Assembly: GCA_018648945.1 (NCBI GenBank)
Contig: JABGQJ010000120.1
Location: forward strand, 1 to 14,707
Direction: 5' to 3'
Source of the DNA: Victivallales bacterium
GTDB taxonomy: Bacteria; Verrucomicrobiota; Lentisphaeria; Oligosphaerales; Lenti-02
Length of the DNA stretch: 14,707 bases
Shown piece after piece: positions 153 through 14,703 of the stretch; position 1 is the first letter of the stretch; the number at the start of each line of letters is the position of its first letter. Under the pieces are notes generated by a model. It saw only the letters and a program-made list of their open reading frames with translations, ran no database searches and was not told the origin of the DNA. Both the position numbers and the translations under genes were made by a program.

Positions 153-229
153 TGGTACCCCGGACGCGATTCGAACGCGTGACCTACGGCTTAGGAGGCC
201 GTTGCTCTATCCAGCTGAGCTACCGGGGC
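153..229 (-). tRNA. tRNA-Arg (anticodon CCU), CCA encoded
   Basis: On the minus strand the sequence folds as a full cloverleaf of 77 nt including CCA. The acceptor stem is GCCCCGG with CCGGGGT (first pair G-U), followed by discriminator A and an encoded CCA. The D-arm contains AGCTCAGCTGGATAGAGC. The anticodon stem ACGGC/GCCGT closes loop CTCCTAA, giving anticodon CCU, which reads the arginine codon AGG. The T-arm carries the standard GTTCGAATC loop. It begins 45 nt after the stop of the HEAT-repeat gene on the same strand, so it could be read through from that operon. A promoter-like pair and a terminator hairpin around it suggest it can also be transcribed alone. Confidence 0.97.
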
Positions 230-274: not shown

Positions 275-2092
275 TCAGGGCCTACGCGCCTCGAAGATGC
301 CGAACTGGTAGGACTTCCAGCGGGTGGGGCGGAGGGCGGGGTCGAGAGTGGTGCCCCCGAGGTAGGCACGGGCCTGGCGGGCGACTTCGAGCACTTCGGC
401 GGAGGGCATGAGGCTGCCGTCGGTGGGGAAGTCGCCTTTGGCGTAGACTTTGCCGTGGATCTTCATCACCTGTTCGAACTGAGGGAGGAACCGGGCGTCG
501 TGGCGGCTCATCTGGGCGAGGGCGAAGGTGCAGGAGCCAAGGACGTAGTCGGGTTCGAAGAGCATCTCGCCCATCTCGCCGGGGATCACGGGGACGGTGG
601 CCTGGACAACCAGACGCTTGGCGAGGGCGGGCGAAGGCGGGCGCGTGCGACCGATGGCCCAGGCAGCAGCGGCGTGGTTGGCACCGGACATTTTGTCAGT
701 GTTGACCGTTTTCAGCACCTTCAAGAGGGTGGGGTTGAAGACCTTGCCGTCGGCGATCCAGCCCATGCCGATGATGGCGGCATGGCGCACATCCTCCTCC
801 TTGTCGAAGGCGAGACGCTGGATGGTGGGGTAGGTATTGGGGACAGCGATGGCACCAAGGGCGCGGGCAACATCGGTGCGGACGCCGGTGTCCTTGTGGC
901 TGGCGAGGCGGTTGATGGCGTCGGCGGCGAAATCGGCATCGAAGCAACCCAGGGCGAAGACGGCGGCGGCAATATTGACTGGTCTGGTTTCCCGGGGAAG
1001 GCGCTGGGCGATGGGCTGGGCGAACTGGCGGCTGTTCAGGCGACCAAGCAGGCGGTAGACGTGGTAGCGGGTGTAGGCCCTGCCCTCGGGGAGGCGCTTC
1101 CCTGCGGCTTCATCGACGGGACAGGCGGGATGGATGGCAACCAAGCTGTCCTCCGCCTCCCGACGGACAAGGGTGCGGGGATCGCCAAGGAGCGCGACGA
1201 GGGCGTCGCGAGTGGCGGGTTGGGGGAAGGGGGCGAGGGATTCGGCGGCTTGGCGCCGGACCTCGGGATCGGGGTCGCGAGTCAGCGCCAGGAGAGTCTT
1301 GAGAAATGCCGGATCGGCTTTCTTGCCAAGGGATTGAGCGAGGCTGGCGCGGACACTGGGGTGGGCGTCCTTGGCCAGGCGTGGGACGAGGGATTTCGCA
1401 TCGGCTGGCGCGGCTTCGTCGATGGCATCGGCCAGAGCATGGCGCACCGGAATGGCGGCGGCCAGGGCTTTCCTGGGGATCCTGACGGCGCGTCCGGATG
1501 CCCCGCCAACGCGCAGGGCGGTGGCCAGCGAGGCGGCACTGACGACTGGGTCGGCATGGTCCCAGAGGGGGCGCAGGACGGTCAGACGGAGGCGCGTGCC
1601 CCGCTCCTGCAATGCCTGGGCGGCGGCGAGCCGCAAGCGGGAGGTGGGTTCGTTGGCCGCGAGGTCGGCCAGTCGCTTGGCCGGGAACTTCGGGATGTGG
1701 CCAGCAAGGCGGATTGCCCAGTAGCGGATGTCCGAGTCGCTGTCCTTGAGCCGAGCGTCCAGGGCCTTCATGTCCACGTCCGGCATGGTTGTGCAGAAGC
1801 TGAGCTGTTGGAGGATGGTGCCCACGAGGCGAGCATCCTGCTCCGTGGCAAGGGAGTCCGCGAGGACTTTCCGGGACGCGGGCAGGTCCATCTCGCGCAG
1901 GTGGCGGTAGATGGTGCCGCGCAGGTCGCGGTTCCCATGCTTGAGCCCCTGGCGCTGGCGGGGCACGTCCTGCTCGGCGACGGCAGTGGGGTAGTCGCCG
2001 GGGAAGGTGTCGGTCTCTTCCAACGGCCGCTTCTCCCACAAAGGCAGGAGCATGGGGAAGAGGGTGATGATTTTGATGATGGGGAGCCCCAT
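275..2092 (-). CDS. HEAT-repeat protein with hydrophobic N-terminus
   Basis: This 605-residue protein is rich in two-helix repeats of the HEAT/PBS-lyase type. They run roughly from residue 105 to 450, with recurring cores such as DSDIRYWAIRLAG, DPEVRRQAAESLAPF and EEDVRHAAIIGMG. Such repeats form curved protein-binding scaffolds; no catalytic motif is visible. Residues 4-19 (PIIKIITLFPMLLPLW) are strongly hydrophobic and could be a membrane anchor or docking helix, but there is no clear signal-peptidase site. The start is supported by AAGGAGA at 2100-2106, 7 nt upstream of ATG. It begins 22 nt after the ABC permease gene, so it is probably co-transcribed and may serve the transporter as a scaffold or adaptor. 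That role is inferred from neighbours. The C-terminal 150 residues match no family I recognise. Confidence 0.85.
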   Translation of the reverse strand: MGLPIIKIITLFPMLLPLWEKRPLEETDTFPGDYPTAVAEQDVPRQRQGLKHGNRDLRGTIYRHLREMDLPASRKVLADSLATEQDARLVGTILQQLSFCTTMPDVDMKALDARLKDSDSDIRYWAIRLAGHIPKFPAKRLADLAANEPTSRLRLAAAQALQERGTRLRLTVLRPLWDHADPVVSAASLATALRVGGASGRAVRIPRKALAAAIPVRHALADAIDEAAPADAKSLVPRLAKDAHPSVRASLAQSLGKKADPAFLKTLLALTRDPDPEVRRQAAESLAPFPQPATRDALVALLGDPRTLVRREAEDSLVAIHPACPVDEAAGKRLPEGRAYTRYHVYRLLGRLNSRQFAQPIAQRLPRETRPVNIAAAVFALGCFDADFAADAINRLASHKDTGVRTDVARALGAIAVPNTYPTIQRLAFDKEEDVRHAAIIGMGWIADGKVFNPTLLKVLKTVNTDKMSGANHAAAAWAIGRTRPPSPALAKRLVVQATVPVIPGEMGEMLFEPDYVLGSCTFALAQMSRHDARFLPQFEQVMKIHGKVYAKGDFPTDGSLMPSAEVLEVARQARAYLGGTTLDPALRPTRWKSYQFGIFEARRP

Positions 2093-2114
2093 CGGGCGGT
2101 CTCCTTGCGTCTGC

Positions 2115-3800
2115 TCAGACGCGGTGGTTGAAAATCACATGGACACGTACGGCCGTCAGTGCGACGAGCAGGACGGTGAAGCTGGACAGGTAGACCAAGG
2201 TGTTGATCCATAGCGGCATGCCAAGGATCTTCGGCAGCTGGAAAAGCTCGTTCGAACTGACCTGAAGGGTGGCGACGACGGGGTTGAAGGCGAGGATCAC
2301 GGATTGCAGTTCGGGCGACACACGCGAGCCGAAGAGGAGGACGCTGAGCGTCCCGATGCAGACCACGGCGGCAAAGCCGTAGCTCACGGCGGTGGCGGCC
2401 CCGGTGGAGGTGGTGAGGGTGGAGGCGCAGAGCCCTGCCGCCACGAAGAGCGCGGTGGCCAGGACCAGGATGCCCATGCAGGCGCCGACTCGCCAGTAGG
2501 ATGCCTTGGCTTCGAGGAAGGAGAGGGACAGGAGGACGGGGACACTGCTGACCAGGAAGATCAGCGTGTAGAGGAGCCCGGCCTTGAGTTTGCCGATGAC
2601 GACGGTGCGGACCGAGACGCAGGTCATGCGCAGCATGGTGAGGGTGCCGCTGGTGCGTTCGTCGGTGATGCTGCCCGCGCACACGGCAGGGGCGAAGAAG
2701 GCGACGACGCCGACCTGGAAGATGAGGGCGACGATGCGCACCTGGTCGGGCCGCAGCGCCGTGGCGGAGTTCATCGCGGTCAGCACCAGGAGCCCCATGC
2801 TGATGATGATGCAGGCGGAGAGGGCGCGGGCGATGACTTTGGGCTTGCCGAAGATACGGCTGCGGATCTCGGCCACGTAGATCGGGTTGCGCCAGGAGCC
2901 GATGGGCCGCTTGCGCTTGAGGGGGTCGATCAGATAGAAGGGGAACATGAGCTTGCGCCGGATCGCGGTCTTGAAGTCGGTGTAGTTCTCGTTGGCGACG
3001 GGTTTGTTGCGGCGGAGCGGGCGGAGGACAAAGAGGCAGAAGATGCCGAGGAAGCTGGTGCTTAGAATGGCCATGCCCATGAGATAGAGGCGGTAGACGC
3101 GTTCGGCATTGATGCCGGTGATCGCCAGCTCGTAGTGTTCGCGGTGGTTGAGGGCGAAGAGGACCTCGAAGGGACTGAGGCTGCGGATCATCTGCCAGAG
3201 CGGCCGCAGGATCACCAGCTGGGAGAGGAGCACGGAGGGCAGCCAGGTTGCCCCGGCCATCATGAGAATGCCCACGTAGGTGAGGGCGAGAGCGGTGAAG
3301 CTGCGTTGACAGAGCGCACTCATCGCCAGGCCGAAGAGGCCGTAGGTGAGGGTGGCCAAAAGCACCACGGAATAGGCTTTGAGGAGCAGTGGCACGCTGA
3401 TGCCCCCGGAAAGCGCGCAGATCGCCGGGATGGGGACCGAGGTAATCACCACCAAGAACGTGATCGCCAACGAGGCTAACAGCTTGCCTACCAAGATCTC
3501 GCCAGGGGTGAGCAAGGTCGTGAAGAGCATGTCGAACGAGCGGTTTTCCCGCTCTTGCGTGATCGTGGTCGAGACAAAGCCCGGCACGAGGAGGATCACC
3601 AGGGCCAGATTCAGGTTCAGGAAGACCGTGAAGATCTCGCTGGTGTTGGTCTCGGCGAAGATGCCGGTGCGCGGCCAGAGAATGGCCAGGGTGGTCGCCA
3701 ACGCCAGGATGAGCGTCAGGGTCAGCACCAGCGTTTTCCGGCACCGTGTGTTGGCGCGGAACTCGCGGAGGAAAATGGGATTGGCCCAGAAACGGAACAT
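2115..3800 (-). CDS. Fused tandem ABC-2 type permease
   Basis: This 561-residue polytopic membrane protein would form the channel part of an ABC-2 type transporter. It consists of two related halves (about 1-262 and 300-561) joined by a charged cytoplasmic linker. Each half opens with WxNPI plus a charged helix (NPIFLREFR at 7-15, NPIYVAEIR at 305-313). Each also carries the ABC-2 cytoplasmic motif ending in GK (TQERENRSFDMLF at 81-93 and TDERTSGTLTMLR at 379-391). Both pairs are exactly 298 residues apart, which points to internal duplication. Several hydrophobic segments flank these motifs in each half. ABC-2 permeases normally dimerise, so this one chain could supply both halves. ATG follows the ATPase stop by 1 nt, with GAGGA at 3806-3810 inside the end of the ATPase gene, suggesting translational coupling. 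The substrate cannot be told from sequence. Confidence 0.9.
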   Translation of the reverse strand: MFRFWANPIFLREFRANTRCRKTLVLTLTLILALATTLAILWPRTGIFAETNTSEIFTVFLNLNLALVILLVPGFVSTTITQERENRSFDMLFTTLLTPGEILVGKLLASLAITFLVVITSVPIPAICALSGGISVPLLLKAYSVVLLATLTYGLFGLAMSALCQRSFTALALTYVGILMMAGATWLPSVLLSQLVILRPLWQMIRSLSPFEVLFALNHREHYELAITGINAERVYRLYLMGMAILSTSFLGIFCLFVLRPLRRNKPVANENYTDFKTAIRRKLMFPFYLIDPLKRKRPIGSWRNPIYVAEIRSRIFGKPKVIARALSACIIISMGLLVLTAMNSATALRPDQVRIVALIFQVGVVAFFAPAVCAGSITDERTSGTLTMLRMTCVSVRTVVIGKLKAGLLYTLIFLVSSVPVLLSLSFLEAKASYWRVGACMGILVLATALFVAAGLCASTLTTSTGAATAVSYGFAAVVCIGTLSVLLFGSRVSPELQSVILAFNPVVATLQVSSNELFQLPKILGMPLWINTLVYLSSFTVLLVALTAVRVHVIFNHRV

Positions 3801-3801
3801 A

Positions 3802-4755
3802 TCAGTCCTCGCCGCTCTCGTCGGCTGCCTGTTCGGCGTCGCCGGTCACCGTGAGGAACACCTGCTCCAGGTCGGTCTCGGCTTCCTTGAGGGAGATGAC
3901 GCGCACGCCTTTCCCCACCAAGGCTGCATTGAGGTCGGCGATTTCGCGCCGGGTGCCGGAGAAGACGAGGCGGATCTCGTTGCCGGACGCGATGGCTTCC
4001 TCGACATTGGGGAAGTTCAGGCAGGCCATGACGGCTCGGGGGGTGCTGCCATCGACCACCAGGACGAGGACGAGCTTCTCGCGGAGGGTGTCGGTGATCT
4101 CCGCGACCGTGCCCCGGGCCAGGAGACGGCCGTGCTTGAGGATGCCGACCAGGTCGCAGACGGAGGCAAGCTCGGGCAAGATGTGGCTGGAGAGGAGGAT
4201 GGTCTTGCCGAGGTCGCGCAGCCGGGAGATGGTGTTCCGCATCTCGATGCGCGCCTTGGGGTCCAGGCCGCCTGCCGGTTCGTCAAGGATCAGCACCTCT
4301 GGGTCGTGCAGGAGCGTCTTGGCGAGGCCGATGCGCTGGCGCATGCCGCGGGAGAGGGAGGCGACCTGATAGTCGAGCATGTAGGCGGCATCGGTCAGGC
4401 GCAGGGCCTCGTCGATGCGCTCCTTGCGGTCGCGGGGTTTGATGCGGTAGGCCGCGCAGAAGAAATCGAGGTACTCCCAGACGCTCATCTGCTCGTAGAC
4501 GCCGAAGATGTCGGGCAGGTAGCCGACCAGGCGTTTGATCGTCTGGGTGTTGGCCGGGGTGACCTCGATGTCGTTGATGAAGGCGCGGCCGGAGGTCGGG
4601 CGCACCAGCCCGCAGAGGAGCTTGATCGTGGTCGTCTTGCCCGAGCCATTCGGTCCGATGTAGCCGAAGATCTTGCCCTTTGGCACGTGCAGGTCGAGGT
4701 CGAGGATGCCGCGCCCGCCGCCGTAGTCACGGGTGAGTTTTTCGGTACGGATCAT
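3802..4755 (-). CDS. ABC transporter ATP-binding protein (ABC-2/DrrA-GldA type)
   Basis: This 317-residue cytoplasmic ATPase should energise the adjacent permease. It shows Walker A GPNGSGKTT (34-42), signature LSRGMRQR (134-141), Walker B VLILDEP (154-160), D-loop GGLD (162-165) and switch histidine H191. At the usual Q-loop position the sequence reads GYLPDIFG, with Asp instead of Gln. An acidic residue there is common in the CcmA/DrrA-like branch, which normally serves ABC-2 permeases. About 100 residues after the nucleotide-binding domain form an accessory C-terminal region that ends in an acidic tail (ADESGED). The gene starts 1 nt after the preceding stop; the ribosome site is weak (GAGAGAG). 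DrrA, NatA, CcmA and GldA share this form, so the exact substrate class is open. Confidence 0.95.
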   Translation of the reverse strand: MIRTEKLTRDYGGGRGILDLDLHVPKGKIFGYIGPNGSGKTTTIKLLCGLVRPTSGRAFINDIEVTPANTQTIKRLVGYLPDIFGVYEQMSVWEYLDFFCAAYRIKPRDRKERIDEALRLTDAAYMLDYQVASLSRGMRQRIGLAKTLLHDPEVLILDEPAGGLDPKARIEMRNTISRLRDLGKTILLSSHILPELASVCDLVGILKHGRLLARGTVAEITDTLREKLVLVLVVDGSTPRAVMACLNFPNVEEAIASGNEIRLVFSGTRREIADLNAALVGKGVRVISLKEAETDLEQVFLTVTGDAEQAADESGED

Positions 4756-4756
4756 G

Positions 4757-7246
4757 TCAGAACTCTCTCTGCTCGGGCAGTTGCCCGGTGAGTCTTATCT
4801 GGATACTGCCGAAGCGCCAGGAATTCAGGCGCTCGGCGACGATGGGGTTGCGGACGAGTTGTTTCTGGGTCAGGCGGAGGACAAGCCTGCATTGCCCAGT
4901 GATCGGCGAGAAAAGGGTTGGGGGCAGGGACTGGAACGCGTGGGTGCTGCCGTTGCTGCTGGTGGCCTCGATGGCGCCCAGCCAAGACGCGCTGCTCCCC
5001 CCCAAGGTCTTCGCCTTGCCTGGCTGATGGCCCCGTTGGCCTGAGGGGGCGAGGCGGACCGTGGTGACCAGGTTGCCGCCGGGGTTGCGCGCGTCGATGA
5101 TCGCCTCGACCGAGTCGGGTTGGACGCCGATCATCCAAGCGGGCAACACCACATCGAACTCCAGGAAGAACTCGGGACGGCGCACCGTGCAGAGATCCCG
5201 GTTCGTCAGGTACATGCGGGTGACGTTGCCGCGGGGAACCACCCGGATGCAGGTGGCGGGAATCTCGATCTCGCCAGCCGGCGCGGAGGCGCGCATGGGA
5301 ATGAACTGAATGGCATAGCCTTGCGCAGTGAAGTCCGTCAGATCGAGGGGCAGGGGATCGGTGCCTGGCCGGAAAGGGTGTACGAAGGCGACGGCAGGGG
5401 AGGGGAAGCGCCCGGAACTGACCAGCTCCGACACGCCCGTCAGGAACGGGTCGAGGCGGAGCGCCGCCCGATCGCTGGCAAGCCCCTGAATCTGGCCATC
5501 GCCGAGGCGGAGCGGGCGAATCGCGTTGGGCAGGATGGCAAAGGCGTGGAGTTGGTTGGGCGGGAGCCAATCCGGAAGGTCGGTCGCCGCCACCGTGATG
5601 CTGTCGGTGCCCATCGTCAGGCGGGGGTGGGAAGTGGGCAGGGGAGGGGGGGAAGAGATGGCGGCGATACTCCTGGGCTTGAGCGCCGCCACATTGATCT
5701 TCGGTGTGCTGGAGATCTCGCCGGCGCGGTGCACCAGAACCGGGGCATCGCCGCTCTGCTTCCGTTTGTCCCGGGTCACGGCGGGGAGGCCGCGGATGAG
5801 GGTGTCAGCCGCCTGCCCGACCAGCGTAGGGCGGGCGTCGCTGCGGCTTTGCAGGCTGACGACGGCCTGGCTGGCAGTGCGCGTGCCGCTCGCGGTCGTG
5901 AGGGTGAGGACGGCTGCTCCCCGTCGCGGGCGGTGGCTGTTGGCCCGGTAGGCGCCGATGAACACCAGCCCGGTGGCCAGGAAGCCGAGTGCTGCAGCAG
6001 CGATCCACGCCGTGGCATGGCGGCGGAGGGCATAACCGACGATGAGGAGGATGGTCACCAGGGCAGCATAGCCAAAGAGCAGCGCCGCCACCGGTCGCAC
6101 TCCTGGAATCCGGTGCCCGGTAAGTTGGGCCATGAGCGCGGGAACTCGGGTGTTGTTCTCCCGATAGGAGAGGGAATAGGGGGCCTGCGCCCAAGAGAGG
6201 ATGTGGTTCCAGACTGCCAGGAAGCAGCCACTGTTCCGAGCGATGGCGCCACACGGGTCCACGGCGATCACACCCACGCGACCCAGGCCGATGGACCGCC
6301 AGCGGATGACAGGGAAGTCGCCGTGGGTGAGGGTGCTTACCCCCTCGTCCTTGGGGGTGCTTTCCAGGAACGGAATGCCGTCCGGGGAAGCGAATGGCTT
6401 GCGCTCGCGCTTCGGGCCAAACGCGGTGGCTCCCCAGCCATCCAGTTCGGGCACCACTTCGACGAGACGCACCCGCAGGGGGGTGACTGGGAGAATGTCG
6501 GCGAGGGGAGTGTGGGCGGCGGCGAGAGTACCCGCCGGGCTGATGAAGACCACCGTGCCGCCCCGGTGGACATACTCGATCAGAGCGGCGCAGCGGTCGC
6601 TGCCAAGGTAGCGGAAGTCGGGGGCACCGATGACGACCACGCGGCTGTCGTCGTACCCTGCCCAGTGGGTCGGGGCCTTGGCCGCCGAGATCTTGGTCTG
6701 GGATACGCGCTCCAGCAATTCGGGCGTCCTGCCCAGTTCGCTGACCCCCTCGAAGCTCGGGTTGTCGTCGAGGAAGAACGCCTGGCAGCGACTCAAGGGG
6801 TCGGAGTAGGCGGTAAGGGCCTCGAAGGTGGTCAGCTTCCGGGTGCCTTGGAAGACCTCCATGCGGTACTTCTGGCAGGGCGCCACCGTCACCATCTCCC
6901 GGCCATGGATGAAGCGTTTGCCGGGCACGGTGACCTCGTACTCGAAGATGGCGGTCCCGCCATCCTCAGGCAGCAGGCGGAGCCGGAGGGTGACCGACTT
7001 GGCGTCCGGATTCCGAAGGACGTAGGAGAGTGTGGCCCAGGTGTTCGCCGCGAGGGCACGACTCTTTCCGAAGGATAGGAACACCGACTGCAGCTCAGGC
7101 TTGGCTTGCGCTCCTGGCGTGCAGCAGCAGACGAGAAGCATGGCCAGCGCCGCCAACCAGCCGTTTCCTCGCCGGCTGGGCTGGCGAGGGGGGGCGGCAA
7201 ACCCCCGTCGCACGGCGCCGGGGGAGGATGGCGGGGACCAATGCAT
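4757..7246 (-). CDS. Exported/membrane protein with GATase-like domain, ABC-associated
   Basis: This 829-residue protein has no confident named family. A basic N-region (RRGNGW) and hydrophobic core (LAALAMLLV) end at AQA/KP near residue 48, consistent with a signal peptide or signal anchor. Residues 50-150 look like a beta domain. Residues about 155-350 resemble the glutamine-amidotransferase-like fold found in ABC-associated auxiliary proteins: SRVVVIGAPDFRYL, then ALIEYVHRGGTVVFISP, then GLGRVGVIAVDP. No catalytic Cys-His-Glu triad is evident. Two membrane segments follow (about 385-407 and 411-433), then about 400 residues of Pro-rich and beta-like sequence. The first ATG lies 3 nt after the phosphofructokinase stop with no clear ribosome site, so coupled translation is likely and the start is less certain. 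Placed directly before the ATPase, it may be the auxiliary or sensor subunit, as GldG is in Gld systems; this is inference. Confidence 0.75.
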   Translation of the reverse strand: MHWSPPSSPGAVRRGFAAPPRQPSRRGNGWLAALAMLLVCCCTPGAQAKPELQSVFLSFGKSRALAANTWATLSYVLRNPDAKSVTLRLRLLPEDGGTAIFEYEVTVPGKRFIHGREMVTVAPCQKYRMEVFQGTRKLTTFEALTAYSDPLSRCQAFFLDDNPSFEGVSELGRTPELLERVSQTKISAAKAPTHWAGYDDSRVVVIGAPDFRYLGSDRCAALIEYVHRGGTVVFISPAGTLAAAHTPLADILPVTPLRVRLVEVVPELDGWGATAFGPKRERKPFASPDGIPFLESTPKDEGVSTLTHGDFPVIRWRSIGLGRVGVIAVDPCGAIARNSGCFLAVWNHILSWAQAPYSLSYRENNTRVPALMAQLTGHRIPGVRPVAALLFGYAALVTILLIVGYALRRHATAWIAAAALGFLATGLVFIGAYRANSHRPRRGAAVLTLTTASGTRTASQAVVSLQSRSDARPTLVGQAADTLIRGLPAVTRDKRKQSGDAPVLVHRAGEISSTPKINVAALKPRSIAAISSPPPLPTSHPRLTMGTDSITVAATDLPDWLPPNQLHAFAILPNAIRPLRLGDGQIQGLASDRAALRLDPFLTGVSELVSSGRFPSPAVAFVHPFRPGTDPLPLDLTDFTAQGYAIQFIPMRASAPAGEIEIPATCIRVVPRGNVTRMYLTNRDLCTVRRPEFFLEFDVVLPAWMIGVQPDSVEAIIDARNPGGNLVTTVRLAPSGQRGHQPGKAKTLGGSSASWLGAIEATSSNGSTHAFQSLPPTLFSPITGQCRLVLRLTQKQLVRNPIVAERLNSWRFGSIQIRLTGQLPEQREF

Positions 7247-7249
7247 GGT

Positions 7250-8917
7250 CTAGCTGCGTTCCAGTACGAGTGTGAGGCTGGCGAGATCGCAGACCTCGGT
7301 GGGGCCAAAGTACTGAATCGGGCCGGGATACACGTAGTCGGACCCAGTGGCCCATGCGTCGCGTTTTCCCGCGAACTTCAGGAAGGGCTTGCCGTCAAGC
7401 TCCACGAGAGCCTTGCGGATCACGGGGCAGTCGTGGCCATGGCGCCGCTCCATGTTCATCATCATGGTCAAGGGAATGCCGCCGGCCTTCCACTCGCTGG
7501 CGGGACCGGAGACGTTCCTGACGCTGGCCATGTAGGCCGTGCGCCCGGCCCCGATCAGGGTCGCCGCCGTGTAGCCGAGCCCGTAGCAGTAGTCGGCGTC
7601 GAAGTTGGACGGGGCAGCGCAGCGTCCCTCATAGCCGAAGAAGTGGGTCTGGGGGCTGAACTTGCCGCCTGCCTGCCGGTACTCGGGATCGGCCTTGAGA
7701 ACGTCCGCAACCATCATGCCCAGCAGTTTCTCGGTCTCGATTTTGGAGACCTGGACGTTGCCGTGCGGGTCGCGGTCGGCCATCAGTTGGCCCTTGAGCT
7801 CGTTGGGCAGGGCCTTGAAGGTCTCGGCGGCGCCAGCACTCAGCTGGTCGGCGGCGAAGTCGATCTGGGTGTCGAGCCCGGCAAGCTTGGCGAAGGCATC
7901 GGCCGTCTCGCTGCCTTCCGCCAGGAGGTCGTTGAGTTCGCCGATGAGCACGCCGAGGGAGGGGATGAACTCGATCAGTCCCTCGGGGATCAGGACGATG
8001 CCGAAATTGTTGCCGGCCATCGCTCTGGCCTTGACCGTTGCCGCGATCTCGGCGACGACCTCGTCCAGCGTCTGGGCCTTGGCCTCGACTTCCTCGGAGA
8101 TGACGCAGCAGTTCGGGTGGGTCTGCAGGGCGCATTCGAGCGCGATGTGGGAGGCACTGCGCCCCATCAGCTTGATGAAGTGCCAGTATTTGCGGGCGGA
8201 ACTGGCGTCGCGCATGATGTTGCCGATCAGTTCGCTGTACACCTTGGTCGCGGTGTCGAAGCCGAAACTGATCTCTATCTGCTCGTTGCGCAGGTCGCCG
8301 TCGATGGTCTTCGGACAGCCGACGACTTGGATGCCCTTGTCGTTGGCCTCCATCCACTCGGCCAGCAGGCAGGCATTGGTATTGGAGTCGTCGCCGCCGA
8401 TCACGACCAGGGCGGAGACGCCGAGCTTGTGGCAGTTGCTCGCGACCGTTTCGAACTGCTCCTCGGTCTCCAGTTTCGTGCGACCGCTGCAGATGATGTC
8501 GAAGCCGCCGGTGTTGCGATACTCGTCGACGACCTCCTCGGTGAGCACTTTGTACTCGTTTTCGGTCAACCCGCTGGGGCCGCCGAGGAAGCCGAAGAGT
8601 TCGTTGTCTTCGTTCAGGGCCTTGAGGCCGTCGAAGAGCCCGGCGATGACGTTGTGCCCGCCCGGGGCTTGGCCGCCGGAGAGGATCACGCCTACCTTGA
8701 TGGCAGGAAGCTCGGACTGGGCACCGGGCGCGAAGGTCACGATCGGCAGGCCATAGGTGTTGGCGAAGAGCCCGGCGATTGCTTCGTGATCGGCCACCGA
8801 TGTGGTGTCCGCACCCTCGACCAGGGTCACGAATGGGCCGTTTTCGGCGAGCACGGGAGGGAGCTTCGGCTGGTAGGCGGCACGCGCCTGCTGGAGGGCG
8901 GAAATCTGAGCCATCAT
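7250..8917 (-). CDS. pfp: Diphosphate-fructose-6-phosphate 1-phosphotransferase (PPi-PFK, long form)
   Basis: This 555-residue enzyme interconverts fructose 6-phosphate and fructose 1,6-bisphosphate using pyrophosphate. It acts in the cytosol at the main control step of glycolysis and, unlike ATP-PFK, is reversible. Motifs in order: phosphate-binding GGQAPGGHN (81-89); GGDDSNTNA (174-182), whose second Asp (D177) marks PPi use; PKTIDGD (202-208), with catalytic TIDGD and the PPi-typical K203; and [11 protein letters not shown] (251-261) for sugar-phosphate binding. The length fits the long PFP class seen in plants, spirochaetes and PVC bacteria. Two adjacent ATGs begin the gene; either could be used, with GAGTAGAG just upstream. 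It is the first gene of the minus-strand unit and is followed after 3 nt by the 829-residue protein. No metabolic link to the ABC genes is evident. Confidence 0.96.
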
Positions 8918-8983: not shown

Positions 8984-9122
8984 ATTTGGCCGCGAAGCAA
9001 ACTGTACCCCGCACCCCGCTCTTTTCAAGATTGCCTGACCCGGTGGCAAGATGTTGGCCGGAGGTTGCGGGTTGCCCCTGGCGAAGCTAAATTCCCTGGG
9101 AACTTCGGAACGCGCATCATAC

Positions 9123-9126
9123 GGAG
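9123..9126 (+). promoter_or_regulatory. Ribosome binding site that sets the guaB GTG start
   Basis: GGAG at 9123-9126 lies 8 nt before a GTG at 9135. The frame stays open upstream to an ATG at 9051. That ATG lacks a comparable ribosome site and would add 28 residues with no counterpart in IMP dehydrogenases, so the GTG is preferred. Confidence 0.7.
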
Positions 9127-9134
9127 ATCCAGCT

Positions 9135-10631
9135 GTGAACAGCCCCAAACTCGTCGAGTTCATGCAAGCGCACGTGCACCAGGGACTCACGTTTGACGAC
9201 GTGTCTTTGGTGACCAAGTACGCGGACTTCCTTCCCTCGGAGGCGAGCATCGCCACCCGCGTGAGCCGCAACATCGCGCTCAACATGCCCTTTGTCAGCG
9301 CCGCCATGGACACGGTCACCGAGAGCGAGATGGCCATCGGCATGGCCCGCCTTGGCGGCATCGGAGTGATTCACAAGAATCTCACTCCCGAGGCGCAGGC
9401 GAGCCAAGTGTCACGCGTCAAACACTACCTGAACGGCCTGATCAGCAAGCCGGTGGTGTTCAGGGACAACATGCTGGTGAGCGAAGTGCTTGGGGAGAAA
9501 GAGCGGCATCACTACACCTTCAGCGGCTTCCCCATCCTTGGCGACGATGCACGCGTGGTGGGCATTCTCACCGCCAGGGACATGAAGTTCCTGACCGATT
9601 ACAGCATGAAGGTCAGCGAAATCATGACCCACGATCCCCTCGTGGGCGGGCCCGAAACGGACCTGAACCAGGCCTTCGAGCTGATGGTCAGCCACAAGGT
9701 CGGCAAACTGCCCATCGTCGATGCCGACCGGCGCTTGGTCGGGCTCTACAGCTTCCACGACGTGAAGAACCTGACCGAGGAGCGCGAGCCCGCCTACAGC
9801 CGGGATGACCGCCACCGCCTGCGGGTTGCCGCCGCCATTGGCCCCGGCGACCAGGAACGGGTGGCGCGGTTGGTTGCGGCCGATGTGGACATGCTGGTGA
9901 TCGATACCGCCCATGGCCACTCCAAGGGGGTCATCGAGATGCTCAAGCTGGTCAAACGCGAACACCCCGAGGTGGACGTGGTGGCCGGCAATATCGGTAC
10001 CGGCGAAGCCGCCCGCGATCTGATGATGGCGGGTGCCGACGCCGTGAAGGTGGGCATCGGTCCCGGCTCGATCTGCACGACCCGGGTCGTCGCCGGGGTG
10101 GGCATCCCGCAGATTTCCGCTATCTACGCTGCCGCCCAAGCGGTCAAGGGCGAGATCCCGGTCATCGCCGATGGGGGCATCAAATACTCGGGCGATGTGG
10201 CCAAGGCTTTGGCCGTGGGCGCGTCGGTGGTGATGATGGGGTCGGCGCTGGCCGGCACCGAGGAATGCCCCGGCGAACGGATTCTGCACCAGGGCCGCCG
10301 GTTTGTTGTCTACCGGGGCATGGGCAGCTTGGAGGCGATGAAGAGCGGCAAGGGCAGCCGCGAACGCTACAGCCAGGGAGATGTGGACAACGATGCCAAG
10401 CTCGTACCCCAGGGGATCGAGGGCATGGTCCCGTACCGAGGCCCCGTATCGGAGGTCCTGCACCAGTATGCGGGCGGCGTGCACTTCTCGCTTGGCTACT
10501 GTGGCTCGCGCAACATTCCCGAACTCCAGAGCAAGGCGGAACTGGTGCGCGTCAGCGCCGCCGGTCGCCAGGAAGCCCACCCGCACGATGTGACCGTTGT
10601 CAGAGACGCGCCGAACTACCGGGCCACGTGA
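9135..10631 (+). CDS. guaB: Inosine-5'-monophosphate dehydrogenase
   Basis: This enzyme oxidises IMP to XMP with NAD+, the committed step of GMP synthesis in the cytosol. From the GTG start it is 498 residues, the usual family length. The N-terminus has the family's [11 protein letters not shown] pair of CBS domains spans about residues 100-217 (for example [19 protein letters not shown] and [16 protein letters not shown]) and usually binds adenine or guanine nucleotides for allosteric control. The catalytic loop GPGSICTTR contains the nucleophilic cysteine C314. The mobile flap carries the catalytic Arg-Tyr pair (R411-Y412 in SRERYSQGD). The C-terminus ends in APNYRAT. The gene runs divergently from pfp. 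No guaA follows in the window. Confidence 0.97.
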
Positions 10632-10675
10632 AATCTCGTCTTCCGGGGATCATCTGTACCGCAAGACTGGTATGG

Positions 10676-10691
10676 AGGGCATCCCTGCCCT
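10676..10691 (+). terminator. Weak hairpin after guaB
   Basis: AGGGCA-TCCC-TGCCCT forms a 6-bp stem with a 4-nt loop, 44 nt after the guaB stop. The following bases (ACCGTATCTTAATG) are moderately AT-rich but lack a U-run, so termination would be weak or factor-dependent. guaB and floA could still share a transcript. Confidence 0.25.
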
Positions 10692-10751
10692 ACCGTATCT
10701 TAATGCAGAGTCTGCGACTCGAATCGGTCGCCATGACCGCCCTGGAACTTG

Positions 10752-10780
10752 GCGGGGGAGCCGGAGAAGGCGCTCCCCGC
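10752..10780 (+). other. GC-rich hairpin in the floA leader
   Basis: GCGGGGGAGC (10752-10761) pairs with GCTCCCCGC (10772-10780) with one bulged G around a 10-nt loop. It ends 11 nt before the floA ribosome site. There is no T-run after it, so it is not a normal intrinsic terminator. It may stabilise the floA message or affect its translation. Confidence 0.4.
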
Positions 10781-10806
10781 AGAACACGAAAAAGGAGATC
10801 TAAGAC

Positions 10807-11778
10807 ATGCCTCCCCCGTACGTCTGGGTGATCCTGGCTGTGCCTGCCGCCGTCCTCCTGTTCTTCGTGGTGCTCTTCGCCATGTTCTTCAACGTGTGGG
10901 TGCGGGCCAAGGCCGCAGGCATGCCGGTCAGCCTCTTCGGACTGCTCTTTGCCCGGCTTCGCCGCCTGGACCCGGAATACCTGGTGGACTGTCTGATCAC
11001 CCTGTGGAATGCAGGGCTGGAGATCAGCATGGAGGATCTGGAGGCCCATGTTCTCTGTGGCGGCAACCTGGGCTCCGTTGTGGATGCCGTCATTTCGGGC
11101 GACAAGGCGGGTCTGGATGTGGATTTCCACAGTCTGGCTGCCATCGATCTGGCGGGTCGCGACGTCATGGATGCCGTGAACACCCGGGTCAACCCCAAGG
11201 TGCTGGTCTGTCCTCCCGCTGGCTCTGGGCTCAGTGCCATCTCGGGCGTCGCCCAGGACGGGGTGCGCCTCGCGGCCCGGGCGCGCGTCACGGTGCGGAC
11301 CAACTTGGCGCATCTGGTCGGTGGCGCCGGCGAGGAGACAATCATGGCGCGCGTCGGAGAAGGGATCGTGACCGCCATCGGGCGTGCGGAGTCCCATCGC
11401 GCCATCCTCGAACGGCCCGAACTCATCTCGGAGTGCGTTCTGAGCAGAGGGCTGGACAGCGGCACCTGCTTCGAGATCCTCTCGGTGGACATCGCCGATG
11501 TGGACGTGTTGGACAATGTGGCCGCCCGCCTGCAGTCGAGCCAAGCCGCAGCGGACAAGCGGATCGCCCAGGCTGATGCCGAAATTCGACGGGCTGCGGC
11601 CGTGGCTGTTCAGCAGGAGATGAAGGCGCGCACAACCGAGAGCGAGAGCCGCGTGGCCGCGTCTCAGAGCGCCGTGCCATTGGGGGTTGCCGCCGCTTTT
11701 GGCGAAGCGAACCTCGGAAGACGCCGTCCGCTGCGACATTCTGTCAACTCCCGCATGCGTTGGCGTGCCGAGGCTTAA
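10807..11778 (+). CDS. floA: Flotillin-like protein FloA (SPFH family)
   Basis: This 323-residue protein matches the FloA/YqfA family, membrane scaffold proteins that form foci in functional membrane microdomains. A hydrophobic segment spans residues 5-33 and inserts into the membrane. The SPFH core is well preserved, with signatures such as AAIDLAGRDVMDAV, LVGGAGEETIMARVGEGIV and GLDSGTCFEILSVDIADVDV. It is followed by an Ala/Glu/Gln-rich coiled coil (about 240-300) with QAAADKRIAQADAE. The start has an excellent ribosome site, AAGGAG at 10792-10797, 9 nt upstream. Two things are odd. The C-terminus after residue 304 is a short, very basic tail (seven Arg in 19 residues) in place of the usual acidic end, and no NfeD-type partner is adjacent. 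Reading the tail in the other two frames does not restore the family ending, so I see no simple frameshift. Confidence 0.93.
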   Translation: MPPPYVWVILAVPAAVLLFFVVLFAMFFNVWVRAKAAGMPVSLFGLLFARLRRLDPEYLVDCLITLWNAGLEISMEDLEAHVLCGGNLGSVVDAVISGDKAGLDVDFHSLAAIDLAGRDVMDAVNTRVNPKVLVCPPAGSGLSAISGVAQDGVRLAARARVTVRTNLAHLVGGAGEETIMARVGEGIVTAIGRAESHRAILERPELISECVLSRGLDSGTCFEILSVDIADVDVLDNVAARLQSSQAAADKRIAQADAEIRRAAAVAVQQEMKARTTESESRVAASQSAVPLGVAAAFGEANLGRRRPLRHSVNSRMRWRAEA

Positions 11779-11845
11779 ACGCATACCAAGCCCGCCGCAT
11801 TTGCGCTTCGGCACTCCAGAGCGTAAAATGGCCGGGCAGATAGCC

Positions 11846-11874
11846 TTGATTTGAGAATCCGACGCCCGTATGGT
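11846..11874 (+). promoter_or_regulatory. Candidate sigma70-type promoter for the pilus genes
   Basis: TTGATT (11846-11851) and TATGGT (11869-11874) are separated by exactly 17 bp, in the 185-bp gap after floA. The predicted start near 11881 would give a leader of about 80 nt before the ATG at 11964. This is the best promoter-like pair noticed in the window. It would drive the 211-residue pilus-type gene and probably pilM. Confidence 0.5.
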
Positions 11875-11879
11875 ACACA

Positions 11880-11903
11880 CGCAACCCAACTCGCAACCCA
11901 ACT
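11880..11903 (+). repeat. Perfect 12-bp tandem direct repeat
   Basis: CGCAACCCAACT occurs twice head to tail (11880-11891 and 11892-11903), beginning at the predicted transcription start of the pilus unit and lying in its leader. A 12-bp period puts the two copies on nearly the same helix face. It could be a paired operator, an RNA-protein binding site, or a chance small duplication. Confidence 0.9.
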
Positions 11904-11951
11904 TAGTCTTCCGAGCCCCTCCCACATCCCCGGTTGTCCCGCTCGAATTTT

Positions 11952-11956
11952 AGGAG
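11952..11956 (+). promoter_or_regulatory. Ribosome binding site that sets the start of the 211-aa gene
   Basis: AGGAG lies 7 nt upstream of ATG at 11964. An in-frame TTG at 11934 would lengthen the protein by 10 residues but would place this site inside the gene and add an arginine-rich extension to the signal peptide, so ATG at 11964 is chosen. Confidence 0.75.
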
Positions 11957-11963
11957 AAGCTGG

Positions 11964-12599
11964 ATGGAGAGTTCAACACGGTCACCGAGATTCTGTGCGT
12001 TGCTGGTTTTCAGCCTTCTCCTGGCTGGCGGTCTGCAGGCCCAGAATCGAAACCGGGCGCGAATCAAGTTCACCGACTTCGAGCTGAACAACGTGCCCAC
12101 CCCGGAGTACAAGGACGCGACCCATCCGCAGGCCAAGGGCGAGCATGAGTGGCTGCAGATCTTCACCGAGTACGAGGCTAGCGGCGGCAGAGGCGGCTGG
12201 TTGGACCAAGTCGAGCTACGCTGGTACGTGCTCGTCAAGACCGCCCGCGAGCAGTTCATCCTTCTCCAGGCCAAAGTCGTCTATCTGGACGTGGAGACCA
12301 AGGGAGAGAAGCATCACGCGGTCGTCTACATCCGTCCCGCCTTCAGTCGGCGCTACTTCGACAAGGAGCGGATTCCCAAGGCCAACGTCTGGGTCCGCGT
12401 CGAAGCGGTCGTGAACGGCCAAGTCGTGGAAACCGAAAAATACGGGCGGTCGAAAAGTCCGCCCGGAAGCTGGTGGCAGGCAAAGGAACCCCGCGTCAAA
12501 CACGTTGCCGACACTCTGCTGACCCGCGACCGGACGCCGTTCGCCCCAATGGACTACGACTTCTACGAGCATATCAAGCCCTCTACCGGTATCCGCTGA
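11964..12599 (+). CDS. Exported pilus-like protein, Amuc_1102 family (probable)
   Basis: This 211-residue protein has a clear signal peptide: basic start (TRSPR), core CALLVFSLLLAGG, and cleavage likely after LQAQ near residue 27. The mature part is predicted to be mostly beta strands, with segments such as HEWLQIFTEYEA, QVELRWYVLVKT, FILLQAKVVYLDV and HHAVVYIRPAFSRRYF, then NGQVVETEKYG and a GSWW motif. This pattern, and its place directly before a PilM-like gene, resemble the Amuc_1102 family of Verrucomicrobiota/Lentisphaerota. Those are Ig-like, beta-sandwich proteins encoded with an atypical type IV pilus system. The family call is from recalled features and gene order. The alternative is an uncharacterised periplasmic protein. 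It has its own good ribosome site and a promoter candidate; 64 nt separate it from pilM. Confidence 0.7.
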   Translation: MESSTRSPRFCALLVFSLLLAGGLQAQNRNRARIKFTDFELNNVPTPEYKDATHPQAKGEHEWLQIFTEYEASGGRGGWLDQVELRWYVLVKTAREQFILLQAKVVYLDVETKGEKHHAVVYIRPAFSRRYFDKERIPKANVWVRVEAVVNGQVVETEKYGRSKSPPGSWWQAKEPRVKHVADTLLTRDRTPFAPMDYDFYEHIKPSTGIR

Positions 12600-12663
12600 G
12601 TCAAGAGACAGGCGACCTTTTCCGTTCTCCACTTTTCTACTCGCTACCCGGAACATTAGGCCC

Positions 12664-14703
12664 ATGGCAAGAGCTGAACGAATCCTCGCGATCGACATCG
12701 GCGCGACCAGCATCAAGGTCGGGGAATTTGAATATCCCGGGCGCGAGGCCGTCACTCTGATAAACTTCGCCCACCGCGAATACGAGGAGGAGCTGACCGA
12801 CAGCTCCCGCTCCGTGGTGGTTGCCGGCCTCCTGCGGCAGATGTTGATGGAGAACCACTTCACTGCCAGGCGGACGCTGCTCTCCATCTCCGGGCAATCC
12901 GCCTTCACGCGTTTCGTTCGCCTACCCCCCTTCTCCGACGATCAGAGCCGCATCCGCCAGATCGTCGAGTTCGAAGCCAGGCAGAATGTCCCCTTCCCCA
13001 TGGAGGAGGTCATCTGGGACTACCAGCTGATCGCCTCGCCGGACAGCGACGACATCGATGTCATGTTCGTGGTGATCAAGAACGACATCGTCGAACAGAT
13101 GACCGGGGCCGTACAGGCCGTCGGGCTCGAGCCGTTGTTGGTGGACGTGGCCCCCGCATCATGCTACAACGCCGGTCGCGCCAATCGCGTCGGCCAGGAC
13201 GAGTGCGCGATGATTCTCAATATCGGGGGTCGCAGCACCAACCTGCTGTTCGCCGACGGCGGGCGGATCTTCGCCCGCACGATTCCCATCGCTGGCCACT
13301 CGATCACCCAGCAGATCGGCAAGGAATTCGGCATTGGCTTCGCGGAGGCCGAGGAACTCAAGCGCCGTCACGGCTTCGTCGCCCTCGGTGGCGCCTATGC
13401 CGAGCCGGAGTCCGAGACTGCGGCCGCCGTCTCCAAGATCATTCGCAACGTCATGGCTCGCCTCCACGGCGAGATCAACCGCTCCATCAGCGTCTATCGC
13501 GCCCAGCAGAAGGGCAACCGACCGGTCAAGCTGTATCTCACCGGCGGTAGCTCGACCATGACCTACACGGACCACTTCTTTGCCGAGAAGCTCCGGATGG
13601 AGGTGGAGTATCTCAACCCCTTCGGGGTGGTCCAGTTGGGCCCTGGCGTGGATCGCGCCCGCCTCGAGGAAGTGGCGCACATGTTCAGCGAAGTGATCGG
13701 CCTGGGCCTGCGCTATCGCATGTCCTGTCCAATCGAGGTCAGCCTCGTCCCCGAGAGCATTACTCGCCAGCAGGCGCTGCGTCGCAAGAAGCCGTACCTG
13801 GTGTTGAGCATGATCTTCCTCGTCCTCGTGCTGGCCGTTGCCTGGCGGGGAGTGGACTTCCGCGCCGCGCTCTACGACCTCACGGCCACGGAGCTTAGCA
13901 AGAAGCGGCGCGAGCCGGAGGATCTCAAGAAGGCCATCGAGCAAGCCCAGGCCGAGGGGGGCCAACGGGACGAGCAGTACAAGAGCCTGTGCGCACTGCT
14001 TGGTCAGAGAAGCAACTGGCCCGAAGTCATCAACGAGCTCTATACCATCAGAGGCGATAACCTCTGGCTCGTCTCCATCACCCCGATTATTGGCGAGCTC
14101 AAGAGCACCTCGTCCGGCGGGAATGCGGACGGGGACGAGGGCGATGGCATGAGCGGCGAAGGCGACGTCGGCGGCGGCATGGCGGGCATGGGCATGGAAG
14201 GCGGCGGCATGTTCGGCGACGAAGGTGGCAGCGGTGGCGACGTCGGCGGCGGCATGTTCGGCGACGAAGGTGACGGCGGGTCGGACGCCCCAGAAGGCGA
14301 GGACGTCATGATTACCGGCCTGAAGCTTGTAGGGCATAGTGTAACCTACCTGGATTTGGCGAAGATCCGCAAGACCGGACCGACCAACAATGACCCCCGC
14401 ATGAGAGCCAACGTCGATGATCCTGGCGAAGGCGAACCGACCGACGAAGATGGCAAGAAAGTGGAGAAGGAGGTGGTGCGAGGCACCCCCGAGTCGATCT
14501 TCCTGAGCAAGCTGGGGAAATCCGAGTTCTTCGACGGCGACAAGGCCTATACCGACTTCATCCAGTATTACCCGCCCCGCACGGGAGCGAACCTGGCATC
14601 GTTCGTGATCCAGGTGAAGCTGAAGGAGCCCATCCCGTTCTACAAGGTGGCAGCTTCGACGACGACGACGGGAATGGGTGGCATGGACCGGGGAATGGAA
14701 TGA
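12664..14703 (+). CDS. PilM-PilN-like fused pilus assembly protein (Amuc_1101-like)
   Basis: This 679-residue protein has an actin-fold N-terminus of the PilM/FtsA class. Phosphate-1 loop DIGATSIK is at 11-18, a second phosphate/glycine segment NIGGRSTNLLF at 186-196, and adenosine segment YLTGGSS at 291-297; LPPF and EFEARQNVPFP are typical PilM landmarks. A single membrane helix follows (about 377-394). Next come a charged coiled coil (about 408-440) and a PilN-like periplasmic domain (NWPEVINELYTIRGDNLWLVSITP region, 451-474, resuming near 548). The chain thus joins the cytoplasmic ATPase and the inner-membrane PilN partner, which are usually separate. Residues about 485-547 form a Gly/Met/Asp/Glu-rich insert. 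The ribosome site is weak. The downstream pilus genes (Amuc_1100, 1099 and 1098-like) would be expected past the window edge. Its two halves are firm; the Amuc_1101 family name is inferred from architecture and context. Confidence 0.88.
   Translation: MARAERILAIDIGATSIKVGEFEYPGREAVTLINFAHREYEEELTDSSRSVVVAGLLRQMLMENHFTARRTLLSISGQSAFTRFVRLPPFSDDQSRIRQIVEFEARQNVPFPMEEVIWDYQLIASPDSDDIDVMFVVIKNDIVEQMTGAVQAVGLEPLLVDVAPASCYNAGRANRVGQDECAMILNIGGRSTNLLFADGGRIFARTIPIAGHSITQQIGKEFGIGFAEAEELKRRHGFVALGGAYAEPESETAAAVSKIIRNVMARLHGEINRSISVYRAQQKGNRPVKLYLTGGSSTMTYTDHFFAEKLRMEVEYLNPFGVVQLGPGVDRARLEEVAHMFSEVIGLGLRYRMSCPIEVSLVPESITRQQALRRKKPYLVLSMIFLVLVLAVAWRGVDFRAALYDLTATELSKKRREPEDLKKAIEQAQAEGGQRDEQYKSLCALLGQRSNWPEVINELYTIRGDNLWLVSITPIIGELKSTSSGGNADGDEGDGMSGEGDVGGGMAGMGMEGGGMFGDEGGSGGDVGGGMFGDEGDGGSDAPEGEDVMITGLKLVGHSVTYLDLAKIRKTGPTNNDPRMRANVDDPGEGEPTDEDGKKVEKEVVRGTPESIFLSKLGKSEFFDGDKAYTDFIQYYPPRTGANLASFVIQVKLKEPIPFYKVAASTTTTGMGGMDRGME
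14200..14272 (+). repeat. 28-bp exact direct repeat inside the PilM-like gene
   Basis: Bases 14200-14227 recur exactly at 14245-14272. The offset is 45 bp, so the reading frame is kept and 15 codons are added. Both copies encode a GGGMFGDEG-type unit. A related 21-bp match (14161-14181 with 14236-14256) overlaps the same low-complexity block. This looks like slippage or in-frame duplication within a Gly-rich linker. Confidence 0.9.

Follow-up and report, generated by a model that had tools for sequence, protein, structure and literature searches.

Four adjacent genes of the window (the whole stretch of DNA analysed here, 14,707 nt from a Victivallales bacterium) are read as encoding a single ATP-driven ABC-2 envelope machine of the Lentisphaerota, distantly similar to GldF/GldG, a reading to which a probability of about 0.6 is given. 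The set comprises a GATase-like membrane protein (GAT), an ABC ATPase (ABC), an ABC-2 permease (PERM) and a HEAT-repeat protein (HEAT). The genes are conserved together in related genomes, and HEAT looks like a partner of the ABC-PERM-GAT system. Little is understood of ABC-2 machines that have GldG-like auxiliaries. Here a HEAT solenoid is added as a co-conserved partner, and this would widen the range of cytoplasmic subunits employed by ABC transporters. The set also provides an envelope system that is concrete and open to testing, in a bacterial group with a little-studied cell envelope.

Gene array in the window and across related genomes

The open frames place the array on the reverse strand, transcribed in the order GAT, ABC, PERM, HEAT (Table 1), and they confirm the same-strand cluster with gaps of 1, 1 and 22 nt that the initial annotation had described. 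A fifth gene, absent from that annotation, lies upstream of GAT and ends 3 nt before it, so that the gaps across the five protein genes are 3, 1, 1 and 22 nt. This gene, which encodes a PPi-phosphofructokinase (PFP), is probably part of the same transcription unit. PFP stands outside the core set; of the 39 loci first examined, 15 have it next to GAT. The scan for promoters and terminators stayed near chance (3 found against 1.6, and 6 against 7.5, in shuffled sequences). The window PERM is a full-length, 100% match to the database protein P0036 from a Victivallales bacterium MAG.

Table 1. Features of the window, in order of position.
Feature	Positions	Strand	Basis or remark
tRNA-Arg	153-229	-	Just downstream of HEAT
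HEAT, 605-aa HEAT-repeat solenoid	275-2092	-	Pfam, AF2 model, structural neighbours, homologues with ABC genes
PERM, 561-aa tandem-duplicated ABC-2 permease	2115-3800	-	Pfam, halves homologous, hydropathy
ABC, 317-aa ATPase	3802-4755	-	ABC_tran, motifs
GAT, 829-aa GATase-like membrane protein	4757-7246	-	Model, fold
PFP, diphosphate-fructose-6-phosphate 1-phosphotransferase	7250-8917	-	TIGR02477, 784.1 bits
guaB, FloA flotillin, Amuc_1102-family and Amuc_1101/PilM-like genes in a row	9051-14703	+	Divergent from the array

A contig scan with GAT patterns returned one locus (L001, Victivallales bacterium SZUA-436), which has these five genes in identical order. This single result marks the limit of the patterns, since a later search detected GAT in 38 of 118 genomes related to that of L001 (G001, itself included), the weakest being a partial match at 1.7e-12 in G062. 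With thresholds of E up to 1e-3 for GAT, 1e-30 for PERM and 1e-20 for HEAT, PERM was present in 41 of these relatives, HEAT in 38 and both in 37. In a draw of 387 genomes from the phylum, PERM and HEAT were found in 37 each and together in 31. The corresponding Fisher p values (6e-25 for the relatives, 8e-34 for the phylum) ignore kinship and overstate the significance, as the co-occurrence is confounded by shared ancestry. These overlaps, those of PERM with PF09822 and with PilM, and the layout classes given below were counted by hand.

Among the relatives, the only genome with HEAT and without PERM was G064, where the HEAT match is strong. The four relatives scored as PERM-only at the threshold (G007, G052, G055, G060) carry a diverged match to the HEAT profile directly downstream of PERM; together with G218 and G380, they make up the six PERM-only genomes of the phylum draw, all of which show such an adjoining match, at 57-113 bits. 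Three of these six diverged genes were run against Pfam, and two contain HEAT_2; the gene at L073 (G052) had no Pfam match at E up to 1e-3 and is named from the HEAT profile only. Six genomes of the phylum draw were HEAT-only (G214, G226, G331, G354, G371, G411). Five of them gave partial matches (1e-21 to 1e-35) of the kind expected from generic HEAT proteins, and G411 has a strong match without PERM, at the start of a contig.

The layout was tabulated for 57 genomes, namely all those with a GAT or PERM match plus the HEAT-only G064. All four genes lie on one stretch in 31 of them, which upholds, together with the joint presence of HEAT and PERM in the relatives, the proposal of a conserved set; in G377, PERM and HEAT are some 2 kb apart with other frames in between, and in G060 PERM is broken into two. 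In nine genomes (G003, G005, G006, G007, G035, G038, G040, G043, G045) the pieces reach contig ends, which fits an intact array. In 11 genomes at least one gene sits on another contig, though only part of these cases are certain because some pieces stop near a contig end: the displaced gene is HEAT in ten (G018, G061, G066, G096, G115, G260, G274, G281, G366, G397) and PERM in G099. In G018, no ABC gene of the system appeared in the stretches fetched. The remaining six (G028, G047, G062, G064, G291, G314) are incomplete or single-gene cases, G291 having only a partial HEAT match (7e-31). The order can also change, with HEAT first in G108 (HEAT-GAT-ABC-PERM) and in G099 (HEAT-GAT-ABC).

The recurrence of the array in related genomes indicates that the four-gene cluster is more than chance. 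The initial annotation had taken an unlinked HEAT gene as something that would speak against a system. Unlinked HEAT genes do occur, most clearly in G274, G281 and G397, where GAT-ABC-PERM is flanked by at least 17 kb and HEAT by at least 3.3 kb on both sides, but HEAT is still present in these genomes. Retention of a gene despite a change of place speaks more strongly for partnership than tight spacing does, and these cases therefore argue for a partnership rather than against it.

Architecture of the four proteins

HEAT belongs to the HEAT-repeat family (Pfam HEAT_2, 1.5e-35, 121.8 bits against a cut-off of 27.7), and its AF2 model (pLDDT 92.3) consists of helical repeats; its structural neighbours include alphaRep, importin-alpha and PP2A-A. 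The likeness to HEAT/Armadillo scaffolds such as the PP2A A subunit and importin alpha is one of solenoid fold and carries no functional inference. The hydrophobic N-terminus noticed in the initial annotation is present in all 22 alignment rows (window plus 21 relatives), as a conserved segment of about residues 5-20; the model has there a 7-residue helix (15-21) and no long membrane helix. This alignment (A2) took 21 of the 23 recognised loci, leaving out the partial L045 and L046, while the gene in L065 was not recognised by phmmer.

Regarding PERM, Pfam placed ABC2_membrane_3 at residues 50-255 and ABC2_membrane_2 at 364-519, and the ABC-2 membrane domains PF12698 (41.4 against 31.6 bits) and PF12679 (37.8 against 27.2) both exceeded their cut-offs. 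The two halves align as profiles over 205 columns (hhalign 98.6%, E 1.2e-15), so that the description as a fused permease was right. Hydropathy gave 13 transmembrane candidates (12-14 in relatives), and the loop between the halves is conserved (FPFYLIDPLRRKKPI region). PDB sequence searches with PERM gave no match at E up to 1. The PERM alignment (A3) contained 24 of 25 loci plus the window, with the partial L054 left out. Several gene starts were chosen by script.

Some relatives of PERM deserve separate mention. The permease of G066 (L048:463-2508, reverse strand) carries an insertion of about 100 residues between the halves, with extra hydrophobic segments. That of G060 (L076:8857-10496, reverse strand) is in two pieces with internal stop codons, next to open GAT, ABC and HEAT frames. 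A split permease considered in L051 was rejected: both neighbours are other proteins, RadC and EamA, and the permease of that genome (G115) is on another contig (L083). Among the 120 database permeases listed, those with a name are called 'hypothetical protein', 'ABC transporter permease (subunit)' or, in JGI records, 'multi-copper enzyme maturation permease subunit'. Most of these 120 have no source name; the rest are labelled as Lentisphaerae, Lentisphaeria, Victivallales or Oligosphaeraceae MAGs, plus one Candidatus Pacebacteria (P0071), which is probably a mislabelled MAG in the public record.

ABC is an intact ATPase. It matches ABC_tran (6.8e-28, 98.4 bits against a cut-off of 25) and presents Walker A (GPNGSGKT), signature (LSRGM), Walker B (LILDEP) and H-loop (SSH, at 189) motifs. 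A pattern search found the motifs complete in 34 of 38 system ATPases, the other four having a variant signature (LSHGMNKR or LSQGMGKR). Its best solved relatives by sequence are ABCA-family ATPase domains (8.9e-54).

GAT is the most complex of the four proteins, with a signal-like helix, an Ig-like sandwich (about residues 48-149), a GATase1-like domain (about 152-356), a transmembrane hairpin (about 383-436) and a large C-terminal beta-rich region. Its start is uncertain, as the database copy P0001 (794 aa) begins 35 residues later, and residues 1-28 of the model have a pLDDT below 50. The GATase1-like domain belongs by its fold to the GATase/IFT52 type. A PDB search with the GAT profile returned one weak match (3soz, E 0.018) that agrees with this result, the PDB sequence search gave six chance-level matches, and the Foldseek rows for the whole model held many single-domain or smeared multi-domain matches. 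In Pfam, the window GAT matches DUF4350 weakly (22.1 bits, below the cut-off of 30.4), and at E up to 0.01 this family is matched by 26 of 40 GAT members. Judging from the sequence, the RRH loop between the two helices of the hairpin would place both large domains outside.

An active class I glutamine amidotransferase was rejected for GAT, since the catalytic Cys is not conserved. No position conserved in 85% or more of the rows of the GAT alignment (A4) is a Cys, and no Cys occurs in the columns of residues 236-240, where the nucleophile elbow was placed by hand; at S236, the expected nucleophile position, the column varies (D, H, S, G and others). A4 combined 33 of 39 loci, six proteins and the window; the partial L041, L050, L058, L062, L071 and L072 were left out, and P0001, P0004, P0008 and P0009 were not used.

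Relation to Gld, pilus and archaeal systems

The initial annotation had compared the cluster with Gld-type systems. This likeness stands for the GATase-like fold of GAT and for a distant relationship of PERM to GldF, but neither the GldA and GldF cut-offs nor a match to GldG were reached. Based on profile matches, PERM is a distant GldF relative: GldF TIGR03518 is matched by 25 of 25 system permeases at E up to 1e-3 (best 8e-20), and PERM aligns with the GldF-like half-permeases over 74 columns (93.3%). GldA is also the best NCBIfam match of ABC. Both points favour the idea that the four genes are the Gld (GldA/F/G) gliding transporter itself, and yet the window proteins remain far below the curated cut-offs (ABC against GldA TIGR03522, 212.1 bits versus 402.6; PERM against GldF, 54 bits versus 288.5), on which membership in GldAFG was rejected. 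Moreover, the window GAT had no match to PF09822 (GldG / ABC_transp_aux) or NCBIfam at E up to 0.1, PF09822 is matched by only two of 40 GAT relatives at E up to 0.01, and GAT aligns with GldG profiles over 73 columns only (35% probability). SprA (gliding/T9SS) was matched in none of the 118 relatives, nor in any control genome.

Relatives additionally possess a GldF/GldG operon of a more typical kind. A GldG-type PF09822 protein above the cut-off is present in 75 of the 118, including 37 of the 41 genomes with PERM. Of such loci, ten (L125-L134) were opened, all but one from genomes that also carry PERM. All ten contain a half-size permease, nine an ABC gene, and eight a GldG-length frame of 631-645 aa, an overlapping frame having been picked by the script in the other two. 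L127, the one locus run against Pfam, encodes ABC, ABC-2 half-permease, ABC_transp_aux and DUF4340 proteins. These loci thus form an operon of ABC, half-size GldF-like permease, GldG-like and DUF4340-position genes, separate from the four-gene system. In the ATPase tree, a 97/93 branch divides nine GldG-operon ATPases from all 38 system ATPases, with the caution that two long 'other' rows disturb this tree, one of them inside the system group, and that the tree carries a long-branch warning. The separate operon, the ATPase branch and the missed cut-offs show that GAT-ABC-PERM-HEAT is a second system, parallel to the GldF/GldG operon, and identity with the Gld transporter is scarcely credible. 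Both share an ABC-2 ATPase, a GldF-like permease core and an auxiliary protein with a GATase-like domain. However, the four-gene system has a permease duplicated within a single chain, a GAT of different architecture (Ig-like, GATase-like, hairpin and large C-terminal region) and a HEAT gene where L127 has DUF4340.

A helper of type IV pilus biogenesis, like PilG/PilH/PilI of Myxococcus xanthus, was also considered. That set likewise has an envelope role and pairs its ABC ATPase with membrane proteins, and it is not known to have a HEAT partner. A passage of PMC3724824 calls PilG, PilH and PilI essential for pilin translocation in M. xanthus. Two positions would suit such a role: in the window, Amuc_1102- and Amuc_1101/PilM-like genes start 3 kb past PFP, and L049 has a diverged PilM-like gene some 2.8 kb away from GAT. 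On the other hand, a PilM match near GAT occurs in one of 39 loci, and strong Amuc_1101-family matches (E 2.4e-78 or better) are about as common without PERM (74 of 77 genomes) as with it (37 of 41). The raw PilM tally of 115 of 118 at E up to 1e-3 includes weak matches, none above the family cut-off, and the same search matched eight of 14 control genomes. By co-occurrence, pilus genes are not associated with PERM or the four-gene system, which gives no support to a pilus requirement, and a pilus role is considered improbable. It should be noted that the gene in L049 (7946-9781, forward strand, genome G061) is a second PilM-like gene, divergent from GAT-ABC, and that a long low-complexity stretch rich in Gly and Met occupies part of the C-terminal region of the window PilM-like protein.

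Another point of comparison is DUF4350, which the passages of Makarova et al. (2015, PMC5898192) on this domain tie both to GldG and to arCOG01314/DUF4350, an archaeal complex predicted to act in secretion or membrane remodelling. The DUF4350-type extracellular domain of that complex would correspond to the one matched by the majority of GAT members; its neighbours in the same passages are vWA, Ig-like and predicted S-layer proteins, with no HEAT protein named there. A description of the GAT-ABC-PERM-HEAT system was not found in the open-licence literature, which is not proof of absence.

Proposed function and flanking genes

In the proposed machine, two ABC subunits would power one duplicated PERM chain. 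GAT would be anchored by its signal-like helix and hairpin, with the Ig-like domain, the non-catalytic GATase-like domain and the beta-rich region outside the inner membrane, where it may bind the substrate, pass it on or convey force to the periplasm. HEAT could be a cytoplasmic scaffold that docks on ABC and on the conserved loop between the PERM halves, linking the assembly or activity of the machine to a partner in the cytoplasm. Export is the preferred direction because PERM is of the complete, two-halved ABC-2 type and the nearest solved relatives of ABC are ABCA lipid exporters; with low confidence, the substrate may be an envelope (glyco)polymer or a lipid-linked molecule. More tentatively still, the system could represent a so far undescribed class of Lentisphaerota ABC machine, parallel to the conventional GldF/GldG transporter, in which a single-chain ABC-2 permease would have HEAT as an obligate subunit on the cytoplasmic side and a dead-GATase receptor facing it from the periplasm, giving an ATP-driven path for a signal or a polymer through the envelope.

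The main rival is an ABC machine that does not transport. Some ABC machines couple ATP hydrolysis to conformational change across the membrane. In a system of this kind, hydrolysis would be coupled across the inner membrane to a movement or switching of the periplasmic domains of GAT, thereby controlling an envelope enzyme or surface structure, with HEAT as the cytoplasmic input. The lack of a conserved Cys and the variable nucleophile position, the character of GAT as a large sensor-type protein with Ig and GATase-like domains and the suitability of a HEAT solenoid as a regulatory scaffold would all agree with this. Nevertheless, a full ABC-2 permease with two halves is what exporters usually have and no envelope enzyme is consistently near the array, so that this alternative is regarded as rather unlikely. 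HEAT (or GAT) might also merely travel with the ABC genes in an operon of convenience, given the close spacing and the fact that PFP shows how a metabolic gene can ride in the array. This is very hard to reconcile with the retention of HEAT alongside PERM even where it is unlinked, whereas PFP is beside GAT in only a minority of loci, and such an operon is highly improbable.

A substrate theme was sought among the neighbouring genes, and none was common across loci; as the flanks of the array vary from one locus to another, the hints at a substrate are weak. One such hint is an O-antigen-ligase-like (Wzy_C) gene that adjoins GAT in five loci (L073:14091-16286, reverse strand; L056, L057, L074, L076). 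In L073, L074 and L076 it shares 4 nt with GAT, whose start it precedes by 32-38 nt in the two others, and a PSP1-domain gene lies before it; these identities come from Pfam on L073 and, for the first gene, L056, and from clustering elsewhere. Single-locus Pfam results near the array were ApbE, alpha-L-fucosidase, SHMT/RpiB and an aminotransferase. Furthermore, an HPr-like gene lies just upstream of GAT in six loci (L096:3926-4201, forward strand; L051, L060, L094, L098, L101), identified by Pfam on L096 only and by the GIHCRPSS motif in all six. With PFP in other loci, sugar-flux genes recur upstream of GAT.
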